NCBI GenBank assembly: GCA_021200975.1
Contig: JAJQFT010000016.1
Span: 1-34,140 of the forward strand
Length of the DNA stretch: 34,140 nucleotides
Direction of reading: 5' to 3'
DNA from: Bacillota bacterium
GTDB taxonomy: Bacteria; Bacillota; Clostridia; Oscillospirales; Oscillospiraceae
The notes beneath the pieces are model-generated. The model saw only the letters and a list, made by a program, of their open reading frames with translations. It did no database searches and was not told the origin of the DNA. The position numbers were made by a program, and so were the translations under genes. Shown piece by piece: positions 14,313 through 28,465 of this stretch. Each line of letters starts with the position of its first letter. Within the stretch, counting starts at the first letter, position 1.

Positions 14313-15467
14313 TCAGGCGGCCTGGGTTTCGGGCTTTTTGATGCTCTCCAGAACGAAGAAGTAGACCATGCAGACGAGGCCGATGATGGCCGCGCCGTAG
14401 TACTTGCCGGCCGCGCCGCCGCCGAGCAGGCTGGACATCGGCGCAAGCACATAGTCGGAGCAGACGTTGCCCAGCAGCATGAACGATACCATGATGCCGA
14501 TGGCCGTGCCGCTCGATTCGGCGTCGCAGGAGCCGGCGGTGCCCATCAGCGCGCAGGGAACGGCGGTGGAATACGCCAACCCTTGGATGCCGCCCGCCAG
14601 CGCAATCACGAGGTAGCTGTCGGTAAGCGGGATCATGAACTGGGTGATGGCCACAAGCAGCAGCGAAAGCGGCATGGTGAACTTGCCGAGCGCCTTAAAG
14701 ACCCGGCCAAATACCAGCCCGGCGACAACGCCAAAGGCGGTGGAGATGGAAACGACTGCGCCGGAGCCGGTGGCGTCGGAGATTTCCCGGCCGACCACGA
14801 TTTCGGACATGTGGTTGGAGAAGCAGGCAATCGAGAGCATGAAGATGAACATGCCGATGCACCACGCCCAGGTTTTGCCGGTGAGGTGTACCTTTACCTT
14901 TTCCGTCTGGGCAGCCTTGGTTTCGCGCTTGGGCAGGCCGAGCATGATGAAGAAAATCGGCACGGCAATCAGGTAGAGCAGGTAGGAATAGCGCCAGTTC
15001 AGGGTCGCCAGATAGCCGCCGAGCAGGCCGTAGGCAATGGCGAAAACGTTCTGCACCGACTGCTTGATGCCCATCAGCGAGTCGGCGTCATCGGGGCAGT
15101 ATTCGGTGACCAGTGTCGCCGAGCAGGACGAGCAGAAGGCGTAGCCGATGCCATGCAGCGCTCTTACAACCAGAATGGCGGTAACGTTTTGCAGGAAGCA
15201 GGGCGCGACGCCGGTGATTGCGAATACGGCGGTGCCAAACAGGGCGACGTTCCGGGTGGAGAACTTATTACAGAACGAGCCGCAGAAGAAGCAGAACGGG
15301 ATGGCGACGAAGTTCGGAATCATCAGAATCAGCACGGCGGTCTCCGAGGAGATGTTCAGGTCTGCCATCATGTAGGCCAGGCCGCCGGAAAGCGCGAGGA
15401 TCATCATCACGATGGCATTCACGGCAATAGCGGCGAATTTGATGTAGCCATAGGATCTTTGTTTCAT
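14313..15467 (-). CDS. MFS transporter
   Basis: 384 aa polytopic membrane protein; MFS-like 12-TM pattern; RALHGIGYAFCSSCSATLVTEYCPDDADSLMGIKQSVQN. Confidence 0.85.
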   Translation of the reverse strand: MKQRSYGYIKFAAIAVNAIVMMILALSGGLAYMMADLNISSETAVLILMIPNFVAIPFCFFCGSFCNKFSTRNVALFGTAVFAITGVAPCFLQNVTAILVVRALHGIGYAFCSSCSATLVTEYCPDDADSLMGIKQSVQNVFAIAYGLLGGYLATLNWRYSYLLYLIAVPIFFIMLGLPKRETKAAQTEKVKVHLTGKTWAWCIGMFIFMLSIACFSNHMSEIVVGREISDATGSGAVVSISTAFGVVAGLVFGRVFKALGKFTMPLSLLLVAITQFMIPLTDSYLVIALAGGIQGLAYSTAVPCALMGTAGSCDAESSGTAIGIMVSFMLLGNVCSDYVLAPMSSLLGGGAAGKYYGAAIIGLVCMVYFFVLESIKKPETQAA

Positions 15468-15497: not shown

Positions 15498-17075
15498 TTA
15501 CAGGCCCTGCGCCTTGGCGATTGCGGGGAAGGTGTTGTTCTTGAGGTCGTTGTATGCCATTTTGTAGATTTCGTAGCTCTGGTCGTAGGCATCCTTGACG
15601 GCAGGATTCGGGTCGTAGTGGCCGGTGACATGCACCATGTTCTCCACGGCCTCCTCGTAGCTGCTGTAGTAGCCGCAGCCTATCGTGCCCAGAATCGCCG
15701 CGCCGCAGGCCGTTGCCTCGTTGGCGGATACGGTTTCCACCGGCTTGCCGAGGATGTCGGCGTGGATCTGGCACCAGAGCTTGGAGCGCGCGCCGCCGCC
15801 GGTGAAGCGAAGGCTTTCGTAGGCGGGCAGGCCGGCCTTGTCCAGCGATTCGAGCATCTCGCGGTTTTCGTAGCACACGCCCTCCATGACCGAGCGCACG
15901 ATTTCGGCCTTGCCGTGGCTGTTGGTCATGCCGGTGAAGGTCATGCGCGGGTTCGGGTCGAAGTGCGGCGTGCCGGCCGCGCCGCCCGGCCACGGCAGGA
16001 ATACCATGCCGTCGCAGCCCGGCTTGGCCTTCGCGGCCAGCGCGGTCATCACGTCGTAAACGTTTTCCCCGCTGCGCATAGCCTGCTCCGTCTCGCTCTG
16101 GCAGAGGGTGTCGCGCAGCCAGCGGAAGCAGCCGCAGGCGGTCGGGGAGTTGGCGTCCATCTGCCACCCGCCGGAGGAGGAGCCGAGCACCGTGCAAATC
16201 ATCTCCGGGTGGCGGAAGGGGTAGCTTCCCACGCGGGAGATGGTGCCAGTGGTGCCGATGCACATGTAGGTCTGGTCGTCGTGGATGACGCCAAGGCCGA
16301 GCGCGCCGCACTGGTGGTCGCCGTTGCCGACGTACAGCGGCGTGCCCTCGGGCAGGAGCGTTTTCTCGGATACCGCCTTGGTAACGCGCCCGCACAGGGT
16401 CGCGCACTTTTGCAGCTTCGGGAACTTGCCGGCGTCGAATTCCTCGCGCCACTCGAAGATGTCGATCAGCTCCTGGTCGTAGTCCAGCGTGTCGAGATTG
16501 GTTACGCCGAACCAGCCGGAGTCCGCCGCCGGGTCGATGAATTCCTCGCCGCCGTAGGCCTTCACCAGCAGGCCGTGCATATTGTGGATTTTCGTGGTAC
16601 GGGCGTAAACCTCCGGCTCGTTCTGCTTAATCCACAGGTACTTTGCCAAGGGCCCCGCGCCGCCGCCGGGGAAGCCGCGGCGGTTATACAGCTCCGCCTG
16701 CGAGATGCCGGCGGCCTGCATCTGCTCCAGCGCGTAATCGCCCTGCTTTCTGGCGCGGCCGTCAAACCACATGATGACCTTGTCGCGGGAGAAGTCGCCG
16801 TTCGCATCGCGGGTGACCATACCCACGCGCATATAGGAGAAGCTGACGGACAGGATGTCTTGGGGGTTGATGCCGGATTTTGCGATTGCGTCGTGGGTGG
16901 TTTGCAGGCAGTTGTCCTCTAAGTGCCTGCCGTCCACTTCGCACCAGCCTATGCGCGGATACTCGAGCCGATTTTCCCGGTAGGCGTCTGCGATTTGTCT
17001 GCCCTTGTCATCAAAGATGACCGTCCGGGCGCCGGTCGTGCCGAGGTCCACGCCGATGAAATACTTGCTTGCCAT
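15498..17075 (-). CDS. FGGY-family carbohydrate kinase
   Basis: MASKYFIGVDLGTTGARTVIFDDKGRQI... ATP-binding start, GNGDHQCGALGLGVI, RFTGGGARSKLWCQIHADILGKPVETVSANEATACGAAILG. Confidence 0.93.
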   Translation of the reverse strand: MASKYFIGVDLGTTGARTVIFDDKGRQIADAYRENRLEYPRIGWCEVDGRHLEDNCLQTTHDAIAKSGINPQDILSVSFSYMRVGMVTRDANGDFSRDKVIMWFDGRARKQGDYALEQMQAAGISQAELYNRRGFPGGGAGPLAKYLWIKQNEPEVYARTTKIHNMHGLLVKAYGGEEFIDPAADSGWFGVTNLDTLDYDQELIDIFEWREEFDAGKFPKLQKCATLCGRVTKAVSEKTLLPEGTPLYVGNGDHQCGALGLGVIHDDQTYMCIGTTGTISRVGSYPFRHPEMICTVLGSSSGGWQMDANSPTACGCFRWLRDTLCQSETEQAMRSGENVYDVMTALAAKAKPGCDGMVFLPWPGGAAGTPHFDPNPRMTFTGMTNSHGKAEIVRSVMEGVCYENREMLESLDKAGLPAYESLRFTGGGARSKLWCQIHADILGKPVETVSANEATACGAAILGTIGCGYYSSYEEAVENMVHVTGHYDPNPAVKDAYDQSYEIYKMAYNDLKNNTFPAIAKAQGL

Positions 17076-17122: not shown

Positions 17123-17857
17123 TTACTGCTCCGCGTAAGGCGGCACAATTCCAATTTCGCGCATGGTGTCGAAGTCGTTGCGGATGTCCAGCACATCCCA
17201 AGAAATCACGGCCGAGGCGCCTGCGCGCAGCAGCGTATAGGCGTTTTGCGCGTAGGGGAAGGGAATCGCGGAGGCCTTGATTTCCACATCCGTGTCCTTC
17301 AGCTCGTCGGCCATGAGCAGAACCTGATCGACGGACGGGCCTTCAAACAGGCCGTTTACCGCCGAGGTGGCCACGGCGTCCACGCCGTAGCGCGCGCACA
17401 GGCGGCAGCATTTGCGGATTTGCTCGTCTGTCAGGTAGGCGACTCCGAGCACGGCTACCAGCTCCACGCCCTTCGCGCCCTCGCGCATGGTGCGGATGTC
17501 CGCCTCCACGCCTGCCCAGTCGTCCACGGCAATGGCGGTGGTGTTGATGGCGCTGACGAGCACCTTCGCGCCCAGGGCGATGCCCTCCTCCATTTCGACC
17601 TTCTTCATCTCGCCGCTGAAGCTGCCGCTGCTGGTGCCAATGAAGCAGCCGGGCACGACGTCCGAGCCGGCCAGCGCGTCGGTGAGGATGGGCAGGAAGT
17701 AGGGCGTGTTCACATAGAAGCGGGAGATGCCGTTGGCGATGGCCTTGGCGCAGGCCTCGCGGATTTCCGCCTCGCGGACGTTCTTCCAGTTGATGGAATA
17801 TTCCAGCACCGAGCCGATGGTTTCGCGGGTGTATTTGGATAAATCAAGCTGTTTCAT
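17123..17857 (-). CDS. DeoC-family aldolase paralog A, apparently lacking canonical catalytic Lys/Asp
   Basis: Aligns end to end with the neighbouring DeoC paralog (LDLSKYTRETIGSVLEYS / VNLAKYDRNNIGKLFELS; EIGIVPPY / KIGIVPAY); Schiff-base Lys position is Ala (DAVATSAVNG). Confidence 0.75.
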   Translation of the reverse strand: MKQLDLSKYTRETIGSVLEYSINWKNVREAEIREACAKAIANGISRFYVNTPYFLPILTDALAGSDVVPGCFIGTSSGSFSGEMKKVEMEEGIALGAKVLVSAINTTAIAVDDWAGVEADIRTMREGAKGVELVAVLGVAYLTDEQIRKCCRLCARYGVDAVATSAVNGLFEGPSVDQVLLMADELKDTDVEIKASAIPFPYAQNAYTLLRAGASAVISWDVLDIRNDFDTMREIGIVPPYAEQ

Positions 17858-17876
17858 GATAGCTGCTCCTTTCAAC

Positions 17877-18605
17877 TCAGTCCGGATTGTAGGCCGGGAC
17901 GATGCCAATCTTGCGCATGTTCTCCAGGCCGTCGATGATGGCGGGCGCCGCCCGGGTCCCGACGATGTCGGCGCCGGCGAGCAGGTAGGCGTAGGTGTTC
18001 TGCGGGCGGGGCGCCTTGATTCCGGCCATCTTGATGCCCACATTCGAGTCGCCCAGCACCTTGCGGATGAAGCGGACGTTGTCCACCGTCGGGCCGCCCC
18101 ACAGGCCGAGGCTGGTCTTGACGTAGTTGATGCCGCACTCGACGAACAGCTCGCTGATGGCCTGAATCTCGGTGTTGGTGAGGAAGCACACCTCGATGAT
18201 GCCTTTCAGGCAGATGTCGGGGCCGACTGCGCCGCGCAGTGCGTTGAGGTGGCTGCGCAGGAAGTCGTACTTGTGGTCGAGCAGGGCAGAGGTGTTCACG
18301 CAGAAGTCGATCTGCGAATAGCCGAGCTTCACGGCTGCCTCGGCCTCGCAAATCTGCGCCTTGATGGTGTCGTCCCCGTTCTCGTTGCAGCAGCCGGTGC
18401 CCATGTAAACGGTCGAGCCGGCAAGCTCCTCCTTCAGCACATCCGCCCAGTACAGCGTGGAGCTGTACATGGTGCGCAGGTTGTACTTCACGGCCATGCG
18501 GCAGCCCTGCCGCACCTCCTCCTCGGTGTTGGTGGGGCGGACCTGCGACAGCTCAAAGAGCTTGCCAATGTTGTTTCGGTCGTATTTTGCTAAATTTACG
18601 GACAT
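17877..18605 (-). CDS. DeoC-family aldolase paralog B (catalytic residues retained)
   Basis: SQIDFCVN (Asp), CLKGIIEVCFLT, NYVKTSLGLWGGPTV (Schiff-base Lys), GIKMAGIKAPRPQNTYAYLLAGADIVGT. Confidence 0.8.
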   Translation of the reverse strand: MSVNLAKYDRNNIGKLFELSQVRPTNTEEEVRQGCRMAVKYNLRTMYSSTLYWADVLKEELAGSTVYMGTGCCNENGDDTIKAQICEAEAAVKLGYSQIDFCVNTSALLDHKYDFLRSHLNALRGAVGPDICLKGIIEVCFLTNTEIQAISELFVECGINYVKTSLGLWGGPTVDNVRFIRKVLGDSNVGIKMAGIKAPRPQNTYAYLLAGADIVGTRAAPAIIDGLENMRKIGIVPAYNPD

Positions 18606-18621
18606 GAGATTACCTCCTTGT

Positions 18622-19401
18622 TTATTCTTCAGGCCAGGGCATTGTGGGTGCCTCCGCCTGATTGAGGATGGAGAAGCCGCCGTCCACTGTAATGGTCTGC
18701 CCTACAAGGGAGGACGCCTCGTCCGAGGCGAGGAACAGCACGACCTTTGCCGGGTCGTCCGGTGTGAGCACGCGGCGAATGGGGTGGATGTTCGCAACCT
18801 TCGTAAGAAAATCCGGGTCCTCCTGCAGATGGTGTGCCGACATGGGGGTGAGGATCATCCCCAGCGACACGGCGTTGACGTTGATGCCGTAGCGCGCCCA
18901 GCAGATACCGAGATATTCGGTGATGGCCATCACCGCGCGCTTGGTCACGCCGTAGGGCAGGTGGCGCGTATCGGCGAATACCGCCCGCGGCGAGGTGACG
19001 TTGATGATTTTGCCATAGCGCTGCTTTTTCATCACCTTGGCGGCCTCTTTCGAGAGGAAGAACACGGATTTTTGGTTGATTTCTTGGATAAAGTCGTAGT
19101 GCTCCTCGCTGATGTCCTCCACAAAGATGCGCGAGGCCACGCCGGCGTTGTTCACCAGCACCTCCAGCGAGCCGAAAAGCGCCACGGTCTTTTCCACCAG
19201 CGCCGCGCGATCGCCGGGTATGGTCACATCGCAGTGCACGTAGGCGCATTCGCCGTATGCCGACAGCTCCTTTTCGGTTTTGAGCCCCAGCTCGTCCTGA
19301 ATGTCGGCAAGCACGACGCGGTACCCGGCCTTCAGGAAATATTCCGCATAGGTTTTTCCCAAGCCCCCGGCCGCGCCGGTAATGAGGGCGGTTTTTGCCA
19401 T
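18622..19401 (-). CDS. Short-chain dehydrogenase/reductase
   Basis: TGAAGGLG cofactor motif, NNAG, YGVTK catalytic motif; start at Met 19401, not the longer ORF. Confidence 0.93.
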   Translation of the reverse strand: MAKTALITGAAGGLGKTYAEYFLKAGYRVVLADIQDELGLKTEKELSAYGECAYVHCDVTIPGDRAALVEKTVALFGSLEVLVNNAGVASRIFVEDISEEHYDFIQEINQKSVFFLSKEAAKVMKKQRYGKIINVTSPRAVFADTRHLPYGVTKRAVMAITEYLGICWARYGINVNAVSLGMILTPMSAHHLQEDPDFLTKVANIHPIRRVLTPDDPAKVVLFLASDEASSLVGQTITVDGGFSILNQAEAPTMPWPEE

Positions 19402-19414
19402 ATCTGCTCCCTCC

Positions 19415-21358
19415 CTATGCGTAGTAGCCCGCGAAGAAGCCGTTGCGGACGTTCTTGCGGATGTTGCCGGTTTCGGCCGCGTCGCCGATGCAGACGGCGT
19501 CGATGCCCATATCGTTGAGCGCAAGCTCGAGCTTCGCGCCCGCCGGGCGCTGCCCGGTCGCAAGCACGGTCAGGCTGGCCGGAGCCGTGCAGGCCTCGCC
19601 GGCCGAATTTTTGTAGCGCACCGACGTGTCGCCGATTTCCTCCACGCTTGCGCTCACCTCTAAGCGGAAGCCGCGCTCGCGCATGATGGATAGATCCCGC
19701 GCGCGGTGCGTCCCCTCCTGCTCTCCGGCGAGGGTGGGCAGCATTTCCAGAATGCTCAGCCGGTTGCCGAATTCGGACAGGTAGATGGCCGTTTCGGTGC
19801 CGACCATGCCGCCGCCGATTACCGTGATGTCTGCGTTTTTGGGGATCTCCCGCTTTCCGCTGAGGATGTCCCAAGCCAGCACGGCCTTCTGCGCGCCGGG
19901 AATCGGCGGGACGAAGGGCGTCGCGCCGATGGCAATCAGCACCTTGTCCGGCTTCGCGGCCGCTACCGCCTCGGGGCTGGCCTCGGTGCGGTAGCATACC
20001 TGCACGCCGAGCCTTTCCAGCTCGCGCAGCAGGTACGGCACCGCCGTGCCCAGCACCTGCTTGTGCGGCGGGACGGCCGCCAGCTGCATCTGGCCGCCCG
20101 CGCGGTCGGATTTTTCCCAAACCGTTACGCGGTGGCCGCGCTTGGCCGCGCTCAGCGCCGCCTCCAGCCCGGTGATGCCCGCGCCAATCACCAGAACATC
20201 CTTCTTAACTGCGGCGGGGATGGGATTTCTCTCGTCGAATTTTCCCTCCAGCGCCACGTAGGGATTCAGCGCGCAGCGCATTCCGCTCTGGCGGGTCGTG
20301 GTGTTATAGTAACAGCCGTCGTTGCAGTTGAGGCAGGTGCGAATCTCCGACTCGCGGCCGGTGCGTACCTTTTCCGGCCAGTAGGGGTCGCAGATCAGCT
20401 GCCGCCCGATGCAGACGAGATCCGTCACGCCGGAGGCGAGCAGCTCCTCGCAGACCTGCGGCGAACGCAGGCGGCCCACCATCGCGAGCTTGGCGTCCGG
20501 CAGCACCGCGCGAACAGCCTCGTTGAGCCAGCGGCGGTTGCCCTCGGCGAAATCCTGTGTTTCCACGTTGATGTCCAGCCCGTATTTCATGCCCTTGGTC
20601 ACGTTGATTAAATCCGCCCCGGCTTCGGACAGGATTTTCGCAAACTGCGCGCCCTCCTCGAGCGTCGTGCCGCCGGGAACGGCGTCGCGCACGCCCAGCC
20701 GCACGCTGATCAGGAAGCGCGGCCCGCAGGTCTTGCGGATGGCCTGCACGATTTCCTTCGGGAAGCGCACGCGCCCCTCGATGGTGCTGCCGCAGTAGCC
20801 GTCGCTGCGCTTGTTGAAATAGGGCGAAAGGAACTGCCCCAGCAGCGTGCCGTGCCCCGCGTGCAGCTCCACGCCGTCCATGCCGGAGGCTTGCGCAAGG
20901 CTTGCGGCGGCGGCGAATTTGCCCACGAGGGTCTTCAGCTCCTCCTCGGTGAGCCCGTGCACCGGCACCTTGCCCTCCACATCGACCGCGCCGACCAACC
21001 CCTTGCCGTGGCAGAGCTGCGGAATGGTGCGCACGCCGGAGTGCAGCAGCTGCACGATTACCTTGCTGCCGCAGGCGTGGATGCAGTCGGATAGCTCGCG
21101 GAAGCTGGGGATGGACTGCATTTGGCAAAGCTGCGGCTGGCAGCTCTCACCCGCGCCCCAAGGGTAGTCCACCGCGGTCATTTCCACGATAATCAGTCCG
21201 GCGCCGCCCTTTGCGCGCTCCACATAGTAGTCGCGCATGGTTGGGCTGATGGTGCCGTCGCTGGAGGCCAGATTGCTGCCCATAGAGGGCATGACAATGC
21301 GGTTTTTCAGCGTCAGCGCGCCCACCCGCACCGGGGAAAATAAGATGGGATAATTCAA
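19415..21358 (-). CDS. Old yellow enzyme / 2,4-dienoyl-CoA reductase-type flavin oxidoreductase with Fe-S and FAD domains
   Basis: FSPVRVGALTLKNRIVMPSM, CLNCNDGCYYNTTTRQSGMRC cluster motif, VLVIGAGITGLEAALSAAKRGHRVTVWEK FAD-binding motif. Confidence 0.93.
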   Translation of the reverse strand: MNYPILFSPVRVGALTLKNRIVMPSMGSNLASSDGTISPTMRDYYVERAKGGAGLIIVEMTAVDYPWGAGESCQPQLCQMQSIPSFRELSDCIHACGSKVIVQLLHSGVRTIPQLCHGKGLVGAVDVEGKVPVHGLTEEELKTLVGKFAAAASLAQASGMDGVELHAGHGTLLGQFLSPYFNKRSDGYCGSTIEGRVRFPKEIVQAIRKTCGPRFLISVRLGVRDAVPGGTTLEEGAQFAKILSEAGADLINVTKGMKYGLDINVETQDFAEGNRRWLNEAVRAVLPDAKLAMVGRLRSPQVCEELLASGVTDLVCIGRQLICDPYWPEKVRTGRESEIRTCLNCNDGCYYNTTTRQSGMRCALNPYVALEGKFDERNPIPAAVKKDVLVIGAGITGLEAALSAAKRGHRVTVWEKSDRAGGQMQLAAVPPHKQVLGTAVPYLLRELERLGVQVCYRTEASPEAVAAAKPDKVLIAIGATPFVPPIPGAQKAVLAWDILSGKREIPKNADITVIGGGMVGTETAIYLSEFGNRLSILEMLPTLAGEQEGTHRARDLSIMRERGFRLEVSASVEEIGDTSVRYKNSAGEACTAPASLTVLATGQRPAGAKLELALNDMGIDAVCIGDAAETGNIRKNVRNGFFAGYYA

Positions 21359-21370
21359 GCAAAAGCCTCC

Positions 21371-22138
21371 TTAGTTGCCGTACATGTACCGGCCGCCACA
21401 GATGTCCAGCGTGATGCCGGTGATATAAGCGCTCTCGTCCGAAGCGAGGAAGAGCGCGCCCTTCGCGATGTCCTCCGGGTAACAGAGCCGGCCGAGCGGG
21501 ATGGTCTTCTCCACTTTGGCGACCAGCTCCTGGTCAACGCCCGGGCTGTGCAGCACCGGGGAGTCGGTCGCGCCCGGACAAATGGTGTTGCAGCGGATTT
21601 TGTCGCCGTACCAGTGGTTTGCGACGTATTTGGTCAGGCCGATGATGCCGGCCTTGGTGGAAACGTAGTGCGCGCCGCTGCCGATGCTGCCGCCGCTCTT
21701 GCCCGAGGTGGAGGACAGCTGTACGATGCGGCCGCCGCCGGACTGCTTCATGTATGGATGCACCGCGCGCAGGGTGTAGAAGTAGCCGGTCAGGTTGATT
21801 TGCAGGGCGCGGTTCCAATCCTCGTCGCTCAGGTGGTCGAGGTCGTCCGCCGTTGACCAGAATGCGCCGTTGACCAGGATCGTGATGCGGCCGCAGCGCT
21901 CGAAGATGCCTCGCATCGCCTCGTTGACGCACGCGGAGCTGCTCACATCCATGTAAACCGCCTCCGCGCTGCCGCCCTCATCGGCAATGGCCTGCGCCGT
22001 TTCCTGCGCGCCCTCCAGGTTGATGTCGCAGCAGCATACGTGGCAGCCGTGGCGGGCAAATTCGAGCGCGATGGCGCGGTCGAGGCCCCTGGCTGCGCCG
22101 GTGATTACCGCGACATCGTTTTCAAGCCTTTTTTTCAT
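21371..22138 (-). CDS. Short-chain dehydrogenase/reductase with variant Gly-rich motif
   Basis: VAVITGAARGLDRAIALEFARHG, YVSTKAGIIGLTKYVA catalytic motif, LASDESAYITGITLDICGGRYM. Confidence 0.92.
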   Translation of the reverse strand: MKKRLENDVAVITGAARGLDRAIALEFARHGCHVCCCDINLEGAQETAQAIADEGGSAEAVYMDVSSSACVNEAMRGIFERCGRITILVNGAFWSTADDLDHLSDEDWNRALQINLTGYFYTLRAVHPYMKQSGGGRIVQLSSTSGKSGGSIGSGAHYVSTKAGIIGLTKYVANHWYGDKIRCNTICPGATDSPVLHSPGVDQELVAKVEKTIPLGRLCYPEDIAKGALFLASDESAYITGITLDICGGRYMYGN

Positions 22139-22181: not shown

Positions 22182-23123
22182 TCAGCGGCCTTCGTTTACA
22201 AATTCGGCGATGCTTTGGGCGATGCCCTCGGCGTCCAAGCCGTATTTTCGCAAAATTTCTGCGTAGCTCCCGGAGCTGGCGTAGGCGTGCGGAATGCCGA
22301 GCTTTCTGACCGGGGCGGGGAAGCTCGATGCCAAAAGGTCGGCGATCTGCGTGCCGATGCCGCCGTAGACGTAGTGCTCCTCAACGGTCACGACCCGGCC
22401 AGTCTTGCGCACCGATTGCAGCAGCAGATCCGTATCGAGCGGGTAAACCGTCGGCAGGCCGATGTGCTCGACCGTGATGCCGGCCGCCTGCAGCTGCTCG
22501 GCTGCGGCGATGGCGTTGGCGGTCAGGCTGCCGGTGGAAACCAGCGTCACGTCCCGCCCTTCGCGGATCCGCCGCCCCTTGCCGATGGAGAAGGACGCCT
22601 CCTCAAACAGGTTCTCGATCGGCTCGTTGCCGATGCGCATGTAGATTGGCCCGCGCTCGGCCAGCATGGCCTTTACCGCGCCGCGAATCTCGTTGGGGTC
22701 CTGCGGGCACAGGATGCGCACGCCCGGAATCATCCGGATGATGGCGAAGTCGTCGAGCGAGTGGTGGGTCGAGCCGAGGTCGGAATAGGTGATGCCACCG
22801 TTTCTGCCCACGATTTTCACGTTTTGCCGCATATAGCCGATGTCGTTGCGGAACATTTCGAAAGGCCGGGCGGTCACGAAGGGGGCGATGGCGCAGAATA
22901 CCGGGATTTTTCCCGTCGTCGCGAGGCCGGAGGCCACGCCCTCTACCGCCTGCTCCATGATGCCGAATTCAAAGTAGCGCTGCGGCGCGAGGCGGATGAA
23001 GTCGCCGAAGCCGGAGCTTTTCCCGCTGTCGGCCGATAGCAGCACAATGCGCTCGTCGGCCAGCGCGCATTCGGTTACGGCTGCGCCGAATACCTTGCGC
23101 GGATCCTCTTTGTTGCCAATCAT
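22182..23123 (-). CDS. Transketolase C-terminal subunit
   Basis: RKVFGAAVTECALADERIVLLSADSGKSSGFGDF..., FEFGIMEQAVEGVASGLATTGKIPVFC; 4-nt overlap with the N-terminal subunit. Confidence 0.95.
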   Translation of the reverse strand: MIGNKEDPRKVFGAAVTECALADERIVLLSADSGKSSGFGDFIRLAPQRYFEFGIMEQAVEGVASGLATTGKIPVFCAIAPFVTARPFEMFRNDIGYMRQNVKIVGRNGGITYSDLGSTHHSLDDFAIIRMIPGVRILCPQDPNEIRGAVKAMLAERGPIYMRIGNEPIENLFEEASFSIGKGRRIREGRDVTLVSTGSLTANAIAAAEQLQAAGITVEHIGLPTVYPLDTDLLLQSVRKTGRVVTVEEHYVYGGIGTQIADLLASSFPAPVRKLGIPHAYASSGSYAEILRKYGLDAEGIAQSIAEFVNEGR

Positions 23124-23971
23124 ATTGCTTCCTCCCGCAGCGCCGCCGCCTCGGCGGCCAGCGCCTCCTCCGCCTGCCGCAGCTGTGCCTCGTTCGCCTT
23201 CCAGAAGTGGAATGCCACTTGGTTCTCGCCGAAGGGCAGGCCCTTTGCCTTGATGGTGTGGCACACGATGGCCGTCGGCTTGCCCGCGCACAGCGGCAGC
23301 TCGTCCAGCGCCGCTACAATCTGCTCCATGCTGTTGCCGTCAATCTCCTTTGTCGCCCAGCCGAAGGCCGCGAAATGCGCGGCGATCGGGCGGAAGCTCA
23401 TCACCTCGTCCACCCGCCCGCTGATTTGCAGGCCGTTGTTGTCGATGAACAGCACGAGGTTGTCCGCCTTGTGCTGCGCCGCGGCCGCGGCCGCCTCCCA
23501 GTTGGAGCCCTCCGCCAGCTCGCCGTCGCCCAACAGCGTGTAAACGCGGCGGTCGCTCCCGTCGAGCCGAAGGCCGAGCGCCATTCCCAGCGAAATGGAA
23601 AGTCCGTGCCCGAGCGAGCCGGTGTTGGCCTCGATGCCGGGCAGCTTGTGCATATCCGGGTGGCCGGGGATGCGGCTGTCCAGACTGCCGTAGCTGTCGA
23701 GCACCGTTTTCGGAAAGAAGCCGCGTTCGGCCAGCGCCGCGTATTGACACAGGCATTTGTGCCCGGCCGACAGCACGAAGCGGTCGCGCCCTGCCCATTC
23801 CGGGTTGCGCGGGTCGAGCTTCATCTGGTAAAAGTACAGCGCCGTCACGATGTCCATGGCCGAAAGCGCCCCGCCTACGTGCCCATGCCCGCTGGCGCGC
23901 ACCATGCGCAGCACGTTCAGGCGGCAGGCGACGGCCGTTTGTTTCAGCGCGTTGAGTCTGGCTTTGTCCAT
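23120..23971 (-). CDS. Transketolase N-terminal subunit
   Basis: RASGHGHVGGALSAMDIVTALYF, DRFVLSAGHKCLCQYAAL, GDGELAEGSNWEAAAAAAQHKADNLVLFIDNN ThDP-binding motif. Confidence 0.95.
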   Translation of the reverse strand: MDKARLNALKQTAVACRLNVLRMVRASGHGHVGGALSAMDIVTALYFYQMKLDPRNPEWAGRDRFVLSAGHKCLCQYAALAERGFFPKTVLDSYGSLDSRIPGHPDMHKLPGIEANTGSLGHGLSISLGMALGLRLDGSDRRVYTLLGDGELAEGSNWEAAAAAAQHKADNLVLFIDNNGLQISGRVDEVMSFRPIAAHFAAFGWATKEIDGNSMEQIVAALDELPLCAGKPTAIVCHTIKAKGLPFGENQVAFHFWKANEAQLRQAEEALAAEAAALREEAI

Positions 23972-23972
23972 G

Positions 23973-24413
23973 CTACTGTCCCAGCCTTTCGTACTCGGCA
24001 ATGCGCGCGATTTTTTGGGCGGAGCGGGAGCCGGGGTCGAAGGTCAGGCCGAGGTATTCCTTCACTAGGCACTTGGCCAGCTCGATGCCGGTGACAAGCG
24101 CGCCCAGCGTGATGATATTGGCGTTGTTGCTCAGCGCGGCGCGCTGCGCCTGATAGATGTTTCCCACGCAGGCGGCGTAGGCGCCGGGAACCTTGTTGGC
24201 CGCGATGCTCACGCCGATGCCCGTCCCGCACAGGAGGATGCCCTTGTCGCATTCCCCGGCGGCCACCGCCTCCGCCAGACGGATTGCGGTGTTGGCGTAG
24301 ATGGGGTCGTCGCTGCCAAAATCCACCGTTTGGTAGCCTAGGCTCTCGATGTATGGAATCAGGCTTTGCTTATACGCTGCGGCATTTGGGTCGCAGCCGA
24401 TTGCGATTTTCAT
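23973..24413 (-). CDS. RpiB/LacAB-family sugar-phosphate isomerase
   Basis: KIAIGCDPNAAAYKQSLIPYIESLGYQTVDFG, GILLCGTGIGVSIAANKVPGAYAA; divergent at two active-site His positions. Confidence 0.93.
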   Translation of the reverse strand: MKIAIGCDPNAAAYKQSLIPYIESLGYQTVDFGSDDPIYANTAIRLAEAVAAGECDKGILLCGTGIGVSIAANKVPGAYAACVGNIYQAQRAALSNNANIITLGALVTGIELAKCLVKEYLGLTFDPGSRSAQKIARIAEYERLGQ

Positions 24414-24547: not shown

Positions 24548-25273
24548 ATGCTAGATAGAAACAACCCGCAGCCGCTGTATGTTCAGGTGCACAACATTCT
24601 GGTTGGGCGGCTCGACAGCGGTATTTACAAGCCGCATGACCGTATTCCGTCGGAAAATCTGCTCCGCCAAGAATTCGGCGTCAGCCGTGAAACGCTTCGC
24701 TCCGTGCTTACCGAGCTGGTTCGGGACGGGCGGCTGTACCGCGTGCAGGGCAAGGGCACCTATGTCTCCGAGCCGAAAATCACGGCCAAGGATTTCACCT
24801 ATGTCGGCATCCGGCGGCAGCTTGAGGAGCTGGGATACAACGTCACCACCATCCTGCTGGGTGTGGAGAAGCAGCCCTGCCCGCTGTCGATTGCCGCGCA
24901 CCTGCAAATCCCCGAGGGGGAAGAGGTGTATTACATCCAGCGCCTGCGCAAGGTCAAGGAGGAATCGCTCAGCATCCACAATACCTATGTGCCTGCCGCC
25001 CTGTGCCCGGATTTTGCGCGCAACGACTTCTGCAATAAGCAGATGTGCGAGCTGCTCAGCGAGCAGTACGGCCTTGTGCGCGGCCGGGTGCGGGAAACGC
25101 TGGAGTCCGTCCTCGCGCGCGAGGATGAAACCGAGCTGCTCGGCATCAAGAAGGGGCAGCCGCTGCTCAAGCTCTCCGACGAGATTGCCACCGCCGACGG
25201 CCAGCTTTTTGAGTACAGCACCGTGGTCTTTCGCGGGGATAAGCTCAAGATTCAGCTCAATTACGGCTTTTGA
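24548..25273 (+). CDS. GntR-family (HutC/UTRA) transcriptional regulator
   Basis: MLDRNNPQPLYVQVHNILVGRLDSGIYKPHDRIPSENLLRQEFGVSRETLRSVLTELVRDGRLYRVQGKGTYVSEP wHTH, followed by a UTRA-like domain. Confidence 0.95.
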   Translation: MLDRNNPQPLYVQVHNILVGRLDSGIYKPHDRIPSENLLRQEFGVSRETLRSVLTELVRDGRLYRVQGKGTYVSEPKITAKDFTYVGIRRQLEELGYNVTTILLGVEKQPCPLSIAAHLQIPEGEEVYYIQRLRKVKEESLSIHNTYVPAALCPDFARNDFCNKQMCELLSEQYGLVRGRVRETLESVLAREDETELLGIKKGQPLLKLSDEIATADGQLFEYSTVVFRGDKLKIQLNYGF

Positions 25274-25333: not shown

Positions 25334-26266
25334 TCAGAGTGTCCTTAGGGGATCCGCGGCCAGATATTCGGCGTAGCTTAAGCCACATTCGCCGATTTCT
25401 CTGGCGTTTTGCACGCCCCTTTTGAAGTCGGCATGGTAATCCGAGCCTCCGGAAAGGAAGCGCAGGCGGGGCGCGTACAGCCGGCGTACGAGCGCCTCCA
25501 GCTCGGCGGCGCTGCTGCTGCCGTGGTAGCTGGTCTTGCCGTAGGGGTAGCTGGCCTCCATCGCGTCGATCCCCGCCGCAAGCAGCGTGTCGATGTAGGC
25601 GCCGCGGAAATCCTCCGGCTGCGGGTCGAGCGGTGTGATTAGAAAGGGGTGCGCCAGAATGGCCACGCCGCCGGCGACGTGCAGCGCCTCGATTACCGCC
25701 TCGGGCCGCGGCTTGCGGCGGCGGATTCGGAAGCGGCTGTCGCGCTTGGTCATCAGCTTCGCCTCGCTCCAGGAGCCAAAGCAGCCCTTGGCGGCCAAAA
25801 GCTCAAAAATCTGCTTCTTTTGCAGGGATTTTCCGGCTTTTTCATTCTGCTCGAGTAGCTCCTGCCAGCCTATTGGGTAGCCGGCCTGCGCCAGCGCCTC
25901 CACCAGCACGCGGTAGCTCTCCAGCTTGGAGCGCGCCACCTCCTGCTCCAGCTGCGCGAAGAAGGGGTCGTCCCAGTTGCAGCCGAGGCCCACGATGTGG
26001 ACATCCTCCACATCCGTGTCGCAGGAGATTTCGATCCCCGGCAGGAGCTTCACGCCGTGTGCGGCGGCGTAGCCGATCAGGGAGATCTCCTCCCCGTCCC
26101 CGGCGCGCACGCTGCGCGCCGGGCGCAGGTCGTGGTCGGTCATGGCGATTACCCGCATCCCCCTTGCCGCCGCCCGGTCAATCAGCTCCAGCGGCGTATC
26201 CGCGCCGTCGGAGCGGGTGGTGTGGCAGTGCAAATCCACGGGATACGGCGCGCGCGGCAGCTTCAT
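25334..26266 (-). CDS. PHP-domain phosphoesterase (TrpH-like)
   Basis: YPVDLHCHTTRSDGADTPLELIDRAAARGMRVIAMTDHD, LLPGIEISCD, GGVAILAHPFLI, LSGGSDYHADFK. Confidence 0.92.
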   Translation of the reverse strand: MKLPRAPYPVDLHCHTTRSDGADTPLELIDRAAARGMRVIAMTDHDLRPARSVRAGDGEEISLIGYAAAHGVKLLPGIEISCDTDVEDVHIVGLGCNWDDPFFAQLEQEVARSKLESYRVLVEALAQAGYPIGWQELLEQNEKAGKSLQKKQIFELLAAKGCFGSWSEAKLMTKRDSRFRIRRRKPRPEAVIEALHVAGGVAILAHPFLITPLDPQPEDFRGAYIDTLLAAGIDAMEASYPYGKTSYHGSSSAAELEALVRRLYAPRLRFLSGGSDYHADFKRGVQNAREIGECGLSYAEYLAADPLRTL

Positions 26267-27123
26267 TGGGCAGCGCCCTCCCCGCTGTGGAAAATCCGCA
26301 TGTGCGCCATTGCGACATCCTTGATGCTGCAATTCATCTCTTGGTCGAAGTCGAGCGGATTGAATTTTCCGTCATGGCGCTCGAGGTAATGGGTGCAGCC
26401 CTCCACATAGGCCTGCTTGATGGCGGTGGAAACGTTGATTTTCGAGGCGCCGAGAGAAATCAGCGCCCGAAATACCTCCGGCGCCAGCCCTGTGCCGCCG
26501 TGTATCACGATGGGCACGTCTGTGCGCTGCGCCAGCTCCCGCACAAGGTCGAAGTTGATTTTGGGTGCCCCGGTGTAGACGCCGTGGGCGGTGCCGATGG
26601 CGGGCGCCAGCGCATCCACGCCGGATTGCTCCAGAAAGTACAGGCTCTCCTCAAGTCCCGCTCCGGCGGCGTCCGCCGCGTCCACCTGAATGTCGTCCTC
26701 TACGCCGCTGATTTTGCCGATTTCTCCCTCCACCATGACGCCGCGGTGATGCGCGTAGGCCACGATTTGGCGGCAGTTGGCGATGTTGTCCTCCAGTGGG
26801 AGCTGCGAGCCGTCGTACATCACGCCGTCCCAGCCGCAGTCGATGCAGGCCCTCGCCAAATCCGGGTCGGTGCAGTGGTCGAGATGCACCAGCACGTTTA
26901 CCGGCGCGTTCCATGCCAGCTGCCGGAGCATCGTGCCCAGCTCCTGCGGGCCGAAGTGCTTCACCGTAGCGGCGGAGGTTTGCAGGATTACCGAGCAACT
27001 CATCGTCGTGGCGGCGTGAATGACGGCACGCGCGGACAGATAGTTAAAGATGTTGAAGGCGCCAACCGCGTAGCGATGCTCGCGGGCGTAGCGCAATTCC
27101 TGCACAAAGTTTCTGCTTTTCAT
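26263..27123 (-). CDS. Class II (Zn-dependent) fructose/tagatose-bisphosphate aldolase family
   Basis: VGAFNIFNYLSARAVIHAA, VLVHLDHCTD, VEGEIGKISGVEDD, GTAHGVYTGAPKINFDLV, IVIHGGTGLAPEVF. Confidence 0.94.
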   Translation of the reverse strand: MKSRNFVQELRYAREHRYAVGAFNIFNYLSARAVIHAATTMSCSVILQTSAATVKHFGPQELGTMLRQLAWNAPVNVLVHLDHCTDPDLARACIDCGWDGVMYDGSQLPLEDNIANCRQIVAYAHHRGVMVEGEIGKISGVEDDIQVDAADAAGAGLEESLYFLEQSGVDALAPAIGTAHGVYTGAPKINFDLVRELAQRTDVPIVIHGGTGLAPEVFRALISLGASKINVSTAIKQAYVEGCTHYLERHDGKFNPLDFDQEMNCSIKDVAMAHMRIFHSGEGAAQ

Positions 27124-27160: not shown

Positions 27161-28465
27161 TTATTGCGCACCGTTGGCGGCGTTCATAAAGCGGCGCTGG
27201 TAGGATACGACCTGATTCGCGCTCGAGAAGCGGGCGAGATATTTCGGCTCGGCGGTCAGCACCACGCGGTGCGCCATGTCGCCGTATTCGTCGGAGGCGA
27301 GCAGGCGGTCGATGTCGTAGTAGTTGTAGTCGCCCTCCATCGAGCAGATAATCAGGCGGGTGTCGTCCATGTTGGTCTGCCGCAGCAGCCGCAGGTTGTG
27401 GCGGATGCCGTCCAGCCCGTCGCTGCCCTGGTCGGTGTAGAAGCTGCGCTGGTCGAGCAGTGTTTCCGCCTTGGCAAGAACCCGCAGCAGGTCCGCGTCC
27501 TCCTCCCCGGCGGCGAGATAGTCTTTCTCGAGCATGTAGCCGCGCAGCTGCTCGAGCACCGTGCGGTCGCCCGTGCCGTGGTACAGCTGCACGAGGCGCG
27601 CCATCTGCTTGGACTGCACCAGCCGGTGGCGGATAAAGCTGTTGATGAAATATGGCCGCGCCTGCAGCGCCAGCGCGGTCTGCGCGGGCTCAAACATCAG
27701 GGTGAAGTTGACGCGGTAGCCATGCTCGCGCAGCATCAGCGCCAGATTGTGGCCGCGGAAGGCATCGGTAACGCTCGGATCGTCGTAGCGCGCGTTCAGG
27801 CGCTTGTCCCCCGAGAGCAGCTGCTGCACATTCTCCTTATTTACTGGGCCGGTGTGCGGCACCTTGATGACCACGCGGTATTCCGAAAGCAGCTCGCGGA
27901 AGCGCGCCGCCTCCTCCAGAATTTCGCTGTCGCTCTTGTTGAAGGGGTCGTTCAGCTCCACGCTGATGTCGCAGCCGGGCCCGAGGATGCGGCCGATTTC
28001 GGCCAAAACCTCGTCGCGGGTCTTGTATACGCCGCCGACGTTGGCCTTGGGGTTGTTGATAAAAAGGTCATAGATAATGCCGGGGTTACAGGTCAGGTTT
28101 GATAGAAGCTTCGCGACCGGGGCCACCTCGTAGGGGTTGGCGCTGTCGGCGGAGAATAGCAGGTTGGTTGGGCGCTTCTGGCCGTTCTTGTCGTAGGAAA
28201 TGTTGCGCCTGAGATTGGCGCGCAGCACCCGGTCGGCGCTCACCTCCAGCTCGATTTCAAAGCCGCTTGGCGTTTCTCCGGCGGGAACATGGAAGTAGTC
28301 GATTACCCTCTTGAATTCCGGCGTGACACCGATGTATTCCGCCACGCTGTGCACGCTGCGGAATTCCTCTAGGCTCAGGTTCAGGTTTTCGATCCGGCTG
28401 GTGTATTCCTCCTCGCCGGGCACAGGCTTCAGGTTCAGGTTGCGGATTTTCGAGTAAATGTTCAT
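27161..28465 (-). CDS. Divergent transaldolase-family protein (434 aa)
   Basis: NLTCNPGIIYDLF, VVIKVPHTGP (candidate Schiff-base Lys), RVNFTLMFEPAQTALALQARPYFINSFIRHRL resemble transaldolase blocks; long N- and C-terminal extensions. Confidence 0.65.
   Translation of the reverse strand: MNIYSKIRNLNLKPVPGEEEYTSRIENLNLSLEEFRSVHSVAEYIGVTPEFKRVIDYFHVPAGETPSGFEIELEVSADRVLRANLRRNISYDKNGQKRPTNLLFSADSANPYEVAPVAKLLSNLTCNPGIIYDLFINNPKANVGGVYKTRDEVLAEIGRILGPGCDISVELNDPFNKSDSEILEEAARFRELLSEYRVVIKVPHTGPVNKENVQQLLSGDKRLNARYDDPSVTDAFRGHNLALMLREHGYRVNFTLMFEPAQTALALQARPYFINSFIRHRLVQSKQMARLVQLYHGTGDRTVLEQLRGYMLEKDYLAAGEEDADLLRVLAKAETLLDQRSFYTDQGSDGLDGIRHNLRLLRQTNMDDTRLIICSMEGDYNYYDIDRLLASDEYGDMAHRVVLTAEPKYLARFSSANQVVSYQRRFMNAANGAQ

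Follow-up and report, generated by a model that had tools for sequence, protein, structure and literature searches.

The window, a stretch of 34,140 nucleotides, carries two tandem DeoC-like genes, here called A and B, and the product of A has lost the catalytic lysine that B keeps. From the family alignment and the AlphaFold models, in which A163 sits where B has K163, it is well supported that A is incapable of the lysine-enamine reaction of deoxyribose-phosphate aldolase (DERA). We propose that A is a non-catalytic partner subunit, or 'prozyme', of the divergent class I aldolase B and is made together with it, a role for and against which we find the balance even. The residue loss, an intact predicted fold, the operon, the codon usage, the open frame and residues found in these two proteins alone are observed; that A binds B and changes its activity is inferred.

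Table 1. Positions of the A and B genes and of the neighbouring features in the window
Feature	Position	Strand	Remark
MFS transporter, last gene of the operon	14313..15467	-	
FGGY-type sugar kinase, next gene past A	15498..17075	-	FGGY by DeoL in 68/83 loci
A, catalytically stripped DeoC-like paralogue	17123..17857	-	244 aa; alignment, AlphaFold model, structure matches
B-A gap of 19 nt, ribosome-binding site GAAAGGAG ahead of the A start	17858..17876	-	TTGAAAGGAGCAGCTATC-ATG
B, DeoC-like aldolase	17877..18605	-	242 aa; K163, D100 and K192 kept
Short-chain dehydrogenase 1	18622..19401	-	
Old-yellow-enzyme/BaiCD-like flavoprotein	19415..21358	-	
Short-chain dehydrogenase 2	21371..22138	-	
Split transketolase, C-terminal half	22182..23123	-	
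Split transketolase, N-terminal half	23120..23971	-	
RpiB-type sugar-phosphate isomerase, first gene of the operon	23973..24413	-	
GntR/UTRA regulator, divergent from the operon	24548..25273	+	GntR in 36/83 related loci
PHP-domain phosphoesterase-like protein, same conserved neighbourhood	25334..26266	-	
Class II (GatY/Fba-like) aldolase, same conserved neighbourhood	26263..27123	-	
Long transaldolase-like protein, same conserved neighbourhood	27161..28465	-	

The tandem gene pair

The preliminary description had placed two tandem DeoC paralogs, alignable over their length, at positions 17123-18605, and both points hold: the two genes lie there on the minus strand, and A aligns with B from end to end at 31-32% identity (E ~1e-28). 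Translation of A begins with the ATG codon 17855-17857, preceded by GAAAGGAG; an extended open reading frame of A reaching 18043 was rejected as the gene because it overlaps B. Every motif quoted for the pair is present in the translations, SQIDFCVN, GIIEV, NYVKTSLG and GIKMAG in B, and AKVLVSAIN, AVLGV, DAVATSAV and EIKASA in A. The catalytic set of B is intact, with the Schiff-base lysine K163, the aspartate D100 and the second lysine K192. A instead has A163, V101, V134 and G138, and of the catalytic residues keeps K194 alone, which confirms the earlier reading that lysine, aspartate and glutamate were replaced in A by alanine, valine and glycine and that the second lysine persists in both proteins. 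The four changed residues are encoded by GCC (163), GTC (101), GTA (134) and GGA (138), so the substitutions do not come down to one miscalled base; an assembly error was likewise rejected, since several separate codons are changed and there is no frameshift.

Predicted structures and catalytic residues

The AlphaFold2 model of A revealed a complete TIM barrel with a mean pLDDT of 94.7 and a pTM of 0.92. The model of B (pLDDT 96.2) is also a complete barrel with the same strand order, and in each model strand 6 ends at position 163. The A model matched DERA crystal structures with TM values of 0.82-0.93, and the barrels of A and B each match DERA at about 0.8-0.9. On the strength of this similarity and the confident model, the DERA fold appears to be kept in A. 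The best 50 structure matches of A found by Foldseek are all DERA-type or deposited as DERA-like aldolases, with LsrF absent; the top 50 matches of B are DERA-type, and so are the significant chain matches of both proteins in phmmer. An LsrF/FbaB-type assignment was therefore rejected for A and B, and LsrF, cited earlier as a precedent for A, is not needed. We also looked in the AlphaFold model for another lysine of A at the Schiff-base position, the observation that the preliminary description had named as its own refutation. There is no such substitute among the 11 lysines of A: ten lie in helices or loops, and the sole strand lysine is K194, on strand 7.

In E. coli DERA, K167 on strand 6 is the Schiff-base lysine, K201 on strand 7 lowers the pKa of K167, and D102 is important for catalysis (PMC4725968). 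Equivalents of all three are found in B (K163, D100 and K192), whereas A has A163 in place of the Schiff-base lysine on barrel strand 6 and V101 in place of the catalytic aspartate, and retains the second lysine on strand 7 as K194. K163 and D100 (B numbering) are kept by 126 of the 127 distinct proteins of the family, all but A, so the substitutions in A are far from random. The collection was scanned with two peptide patterns containing K163 or K192 and may therefore be poor in relatives without the lysine. This bias does not apply to about 59 of the 137 hits (137 less the two window proteins and 76 pattern anchors), which are array neighbours or products of a pattern-free search. A further 14 sequences, drawn in part from genomes that are in the count already, all keep the lysine. 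Position 134 is lysine or arginine in 126 of the 127 members and valine in A, and K192 (K194 in A) and N105 are found in all 127, A included. A is further changed at G195 (to A), G216 (to I) and R218 (to W) (B numbering), and retains the family tail residues R233, G236 and P239 together with Q204/N205. Of the 51 columns that are strongly conserved, half are lost in A. Losses affect 17 of the 27 conserved columns on the catalytic face versus 9 of the other 24 (p = 0.09), so that they are only weakly concentrated on that face.

B, its family and the operon

B differs from DERA in several parts of the pocket. Asp18 is replaced by glutamate (D18E), FPxG by NENG, and the phosphate-binding GG loop and GASSG are absent; B has KMAGIKAP and GTRAAPAI where DERA has KASGGV and GASSG. 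The DERA pocket has been left by both proteins at F74, D18 and the phosphate loop, and GG/GASSG and FPxG are missing in A and B alike. A and B have the TIM-barrel fold in common with DERA (DeoC, EC 4.1.2.4; TIGR00126), and both score under the curated cut-offs: B reaches 106.5 bits against TIGR00126 (cut-off 117.3) and 11.6 bits against Pfam DeoC (cut-off 23.8), and A is likewise below both. The earlier identification of B as DeoC stands for its catalytic residues and its fold. It does not extend to a plain DeoC; by its sequence, B is assigned to a distinct DeoC-like family with a predicted altered substrate pocket. An ordinary DeoC is encoded elsewhere in the genome (L003, contig 91), which makes it improbable that A and B serve in nucleoside salvage.

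For this unnamed DeoC-like array family we coined the label DeoL. B is a member both by sequence, at about 35-47% identity, and by its neighbourhood of FGGY kinase, GntR regulator, PHP protein and class II aldolase. A class-level search with B gave a best match per genome of 41-46% identity and showed that 3-4 genes can stand in a row. Relative to its family, B carries D18E, F74N, K84Q and proline for lysine at position 24; three columns (K24, K84 and A204) are lost in B only. Some DeoL members pass the NCBI deoxyribose-phosphate aldolase model. K163 is kept in all members found other than A, including every DeoL locus from the phylum-level search; the pair in the window is divergent.

The ten genes of the operon are tightly packed, with gaps of -7 to 43 nt and the A start 19 nt past the B end. 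Across 83 loci (the window, fetched genome regions and 76 scanned loci), DeoL is accompanied by the FGGY kinase in 68, GntR in 36, PHP in 28, HAD in 24, a transaldolase-like gene in 23, a class II aldolase in 22 and split transketolase halves in 13-14, counts that are lowered by short contigs. Because this neighbour set is also found in the window, the cluster looks like a sugar-catabolic pathway. The window shares the FGGY, GntR, PHP, class II aldolase, transaldolase-like and split transketolase genes with DeoL loci of Eubacterium, Acetobacterium, Treponema, Synergistaceae and others, and differs from them in adding two short-chain dehydrogenases (SDRs), the old-yellow-enzyme (OYE) flavoprotein and the MFS transporter. 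No HAD gene was seen in the set around the divergent GntR gene of the window. The OYE/BaiCD-like flavoprotein has 647 aa and scores 416-433 bits against the bilirubin-reductase and BaiCD models (cut-offs 750 and 825), well short of both. Of the 83 DeoL loci examined, the window is the one with an OYE gene.

The main rival to a partner role is that A is an enzyme which acts beside B, not with B, and performs a new non-aldolase chemistry through K194, N105 and a remodelled pocket, such as isomerisation, dehydration or deacylation of a sugar-phosphate intermediate. Both of these residues are invariant in the family (127/127) and kept in A, both twins have moved away from the DERA pocket, and an ene-reductase and two SDRs have been added to the operon, which implies extra steps that need enzymes. 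However, the joint loss of D, K, K and E strips A of nearly all polar pocket residues, and the single sequence known for A offers no new conserved acid/base cluster. We consider such a new activity unlikely.

Distribution, origin and selection of A

A was found in one genome only: it did not turn up again in the genus (136 genomes) or in the family (301 genomes), and a scan of all species genomes with 8-mer patterns from A alone found nothing. As that scan was empty, the family was reached through B at class level. A weak match to A in Proteus mirabilis was rejected, being an ordinary DeoC with complete catalytic residues. The transaldolase-like gene has no relative in the three other genomes of the genus that were sampled; therefore the cluster was probably acquired here, or lost by the relatives.

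The branches of A and B are 3.18 and 2.05 changes per site long (median end branch 0.086), which makes their placement unsure; a sister relationship of the two is compatible with the AU test (p-AU 0.49). Four residues, E18, L133, L168 and V215 (B numbering), are shared by A and B and by 0 of 125 others, in columns that are otherwise conserved. These exclusive residues favour a duplication within the lineage, after which A would have lost its catalytic function. The helix-3 lysine K85 of A (K84 in B numbering) is present in all 125 others and is lost in B, which has glutamine. Each twin is thus without one lysine that all others have, K163 in A and K84 in B, and this split of invariant lysines, although it rests on few columns, is suggestive of a division of labour.

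The A gene probably is under selection, to judge from its place in a tight operon, its ribosome-binding site, its freedom from stop codons and a codon usage similar to that of the adjoining genes. Its 244 codons are open where about 7 stops are expected at neutral saturation with the same composition (P(none) ~0.0009), its GC3 is 0.84, and its codon score of 0.442 is within the operon range of 0.27-0.48. These values bear on a second alternative, in which A is a dispensable duplicate heading for loss and its divergence reflects relaxed selection, as the long branch, the occurrence in a single genome and the loss of half of the conserved columns would allow. However, the frame is free of frameshifts as well as stops, the ribosome-binding site is intact, the codon usage is operon-like and the fold is predicted with confidence, and as the branch of B is long too, much of the length comes from a sampling gap in the lineage; decay is improbable. 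The least probable alternative makes A a sensor or binding protein that stands on its own, recognises the substrate or product of the aldol reaction and is no subunit of B. The retained fold, K194, N105 and a few pocket residues speak for it; against it, no DNA-binding or signalling part is fused to A, and a GntR/UTRA regulator is already present by the operon.

Proposed role of A as a partner subunit of B

The preliminary description had offered two readings of A, a pseudoenzyme partner of B or a protein with different chemistry, and both are still putative. In the partner role that we prefer, B would be the working subunit, a divergent class I (Schiff-base) aldolase of a sugar-catabolic operon. 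A would be a tandem copy of B in which the Schiff-base lysine, the proton-relay aspartate and most pocket residues are gone, while the DERA fold and the family C-terminal tail are retained. Co-produced with B, A would enter a mixed dimer or higher oligomer as the non-catalytic subunit and stabilise B or switch it on. More tentatively, the two may form an obligate hetero-oligomer, in which a dead, operon-encoded subunit of the DERA superfamily is joined to its active twin in the sugar pathway of a DeoC-like array; this is possible, though we lean against it. Two marks of known prozymes are seen in the pair: the paralogue is encoded with its catalytic partner, here by tandem genes whose products share exclusive residues, and it has lost essential catalytic residues with the fold kept, as judged from the alignment and the AlphaFold model. 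Native dimer contacts of DERA are reported to affect its stability and not its activity (PMC4725968), which weakens an allosteric role of A and leaves a stabilising one unaffected. The occurrence of A in a single genome, the lysine bias of the peptide patterns and the weak concentration of its losses on the catalytic face also count against a partner role.

The dead paralogue of trypanosomatid deoxyhypusine synthase raises the activity of its partner 3000-fold (PMC3663545), and in plants a dead tryptophan synthase beta-like (TSB-like) protein activates TSA (PMC12727527). Similar to A, the prozymes of trypanosomatid deoxyhypusine synthase and AdoMetDC are paralogues that lost essential catalytic residues and are produced alongside an active counterpart (PMC3663545). 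For these eukaryotic prozymes, binding and activation have been proven, whereas for A and B they are proposed from sequence and models; the two deoxyhypusine synthase genes are on different chromosomes, whereas A and B are in tandem. The plant protein PDX1.2 has a TIM-barrel fold. It belongs to the PDX1 family, has lost its active-site residues and supports catalytic homologues (PMC6829848), as A would support B, although its family and reaction differ from those of A and B. A structure of the PDX1.2-PDX1.3 complex has been published, according to a citation in PMC6829848. In a limited text search of open papers, a dead paralogue of DERA was not described. Should A prove to be a non-catalytic subunit, the pair would offer a small soluble bacterial model of a dead twin controlling an active enzyme, and one that is easier to handle than its trypanosome and plant counterparts.

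DeoL arrays in other genomes

DeoL arrays consist of 1-4 tandem genes in several phyla, adjoined by the FGGY sugar kinase, and the 76 DeoL loci in named genomes are spread over Bacillota, Spirochaetota, Synergistota, Actinomycetota, Verrucomicrobiota and others. The family and its gene cluster may be as interesting as the dead paralogue: up to four paralogues stand by a kinase, a regulator and a second aldolase in several phyla, acetogens and Treponema included, and the substrate and pathway are within reach of standard enzymology. In Eubacterium and Acetobacterium, four DeoC-like genes lie in a row (L048:8785-11789; L075:9998-12998; L070:9998-12983), and in the tree the array members fall into separate paralogue groups that are kept across species. 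PHP and class II aldolase genes, often with a HAD phosphatase gene, adjoin DeoL in L047, L048, L050-L052 and L054; in the Anaerofustis-like L051 and L052 the set is reduced to class II aldolase, PHP and DeoL.

The transaldolase-like protein of the window has 434 aa, a weak match to TAL_FSA and no matching NCBIfam model, and may be an unnamed long transaldolase. In L172 and L173 its gene occurs with split transketolase and RpiB genes and without DeoL, and no DeoL was found in the transaldolase-positive relatives of the bacterial family (L172-L174).

Two groups of sequences were considered as counterparts of A or of the pair and rejected. A second DeoL type, 'deo2', comprises 14 sequences adjoining B-like genes; it is not an orthologue of A, as it keeps the lysine and the aspartate and lacks the C-terminal tail of A. 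Tandem DeoC pairs of the same bacterial family (L011, L017, L019-L021, L023 and L026) are not a parallel, as the lysine is present in both copies. One copy of each pair, the canonical one, is extended at its N-terminus and ends in a ferredoxin-like CxxCxxC...C tail; its neighbour has the sequence (D/E)(F/Y)VKIQN around the Schiff-base lysine.
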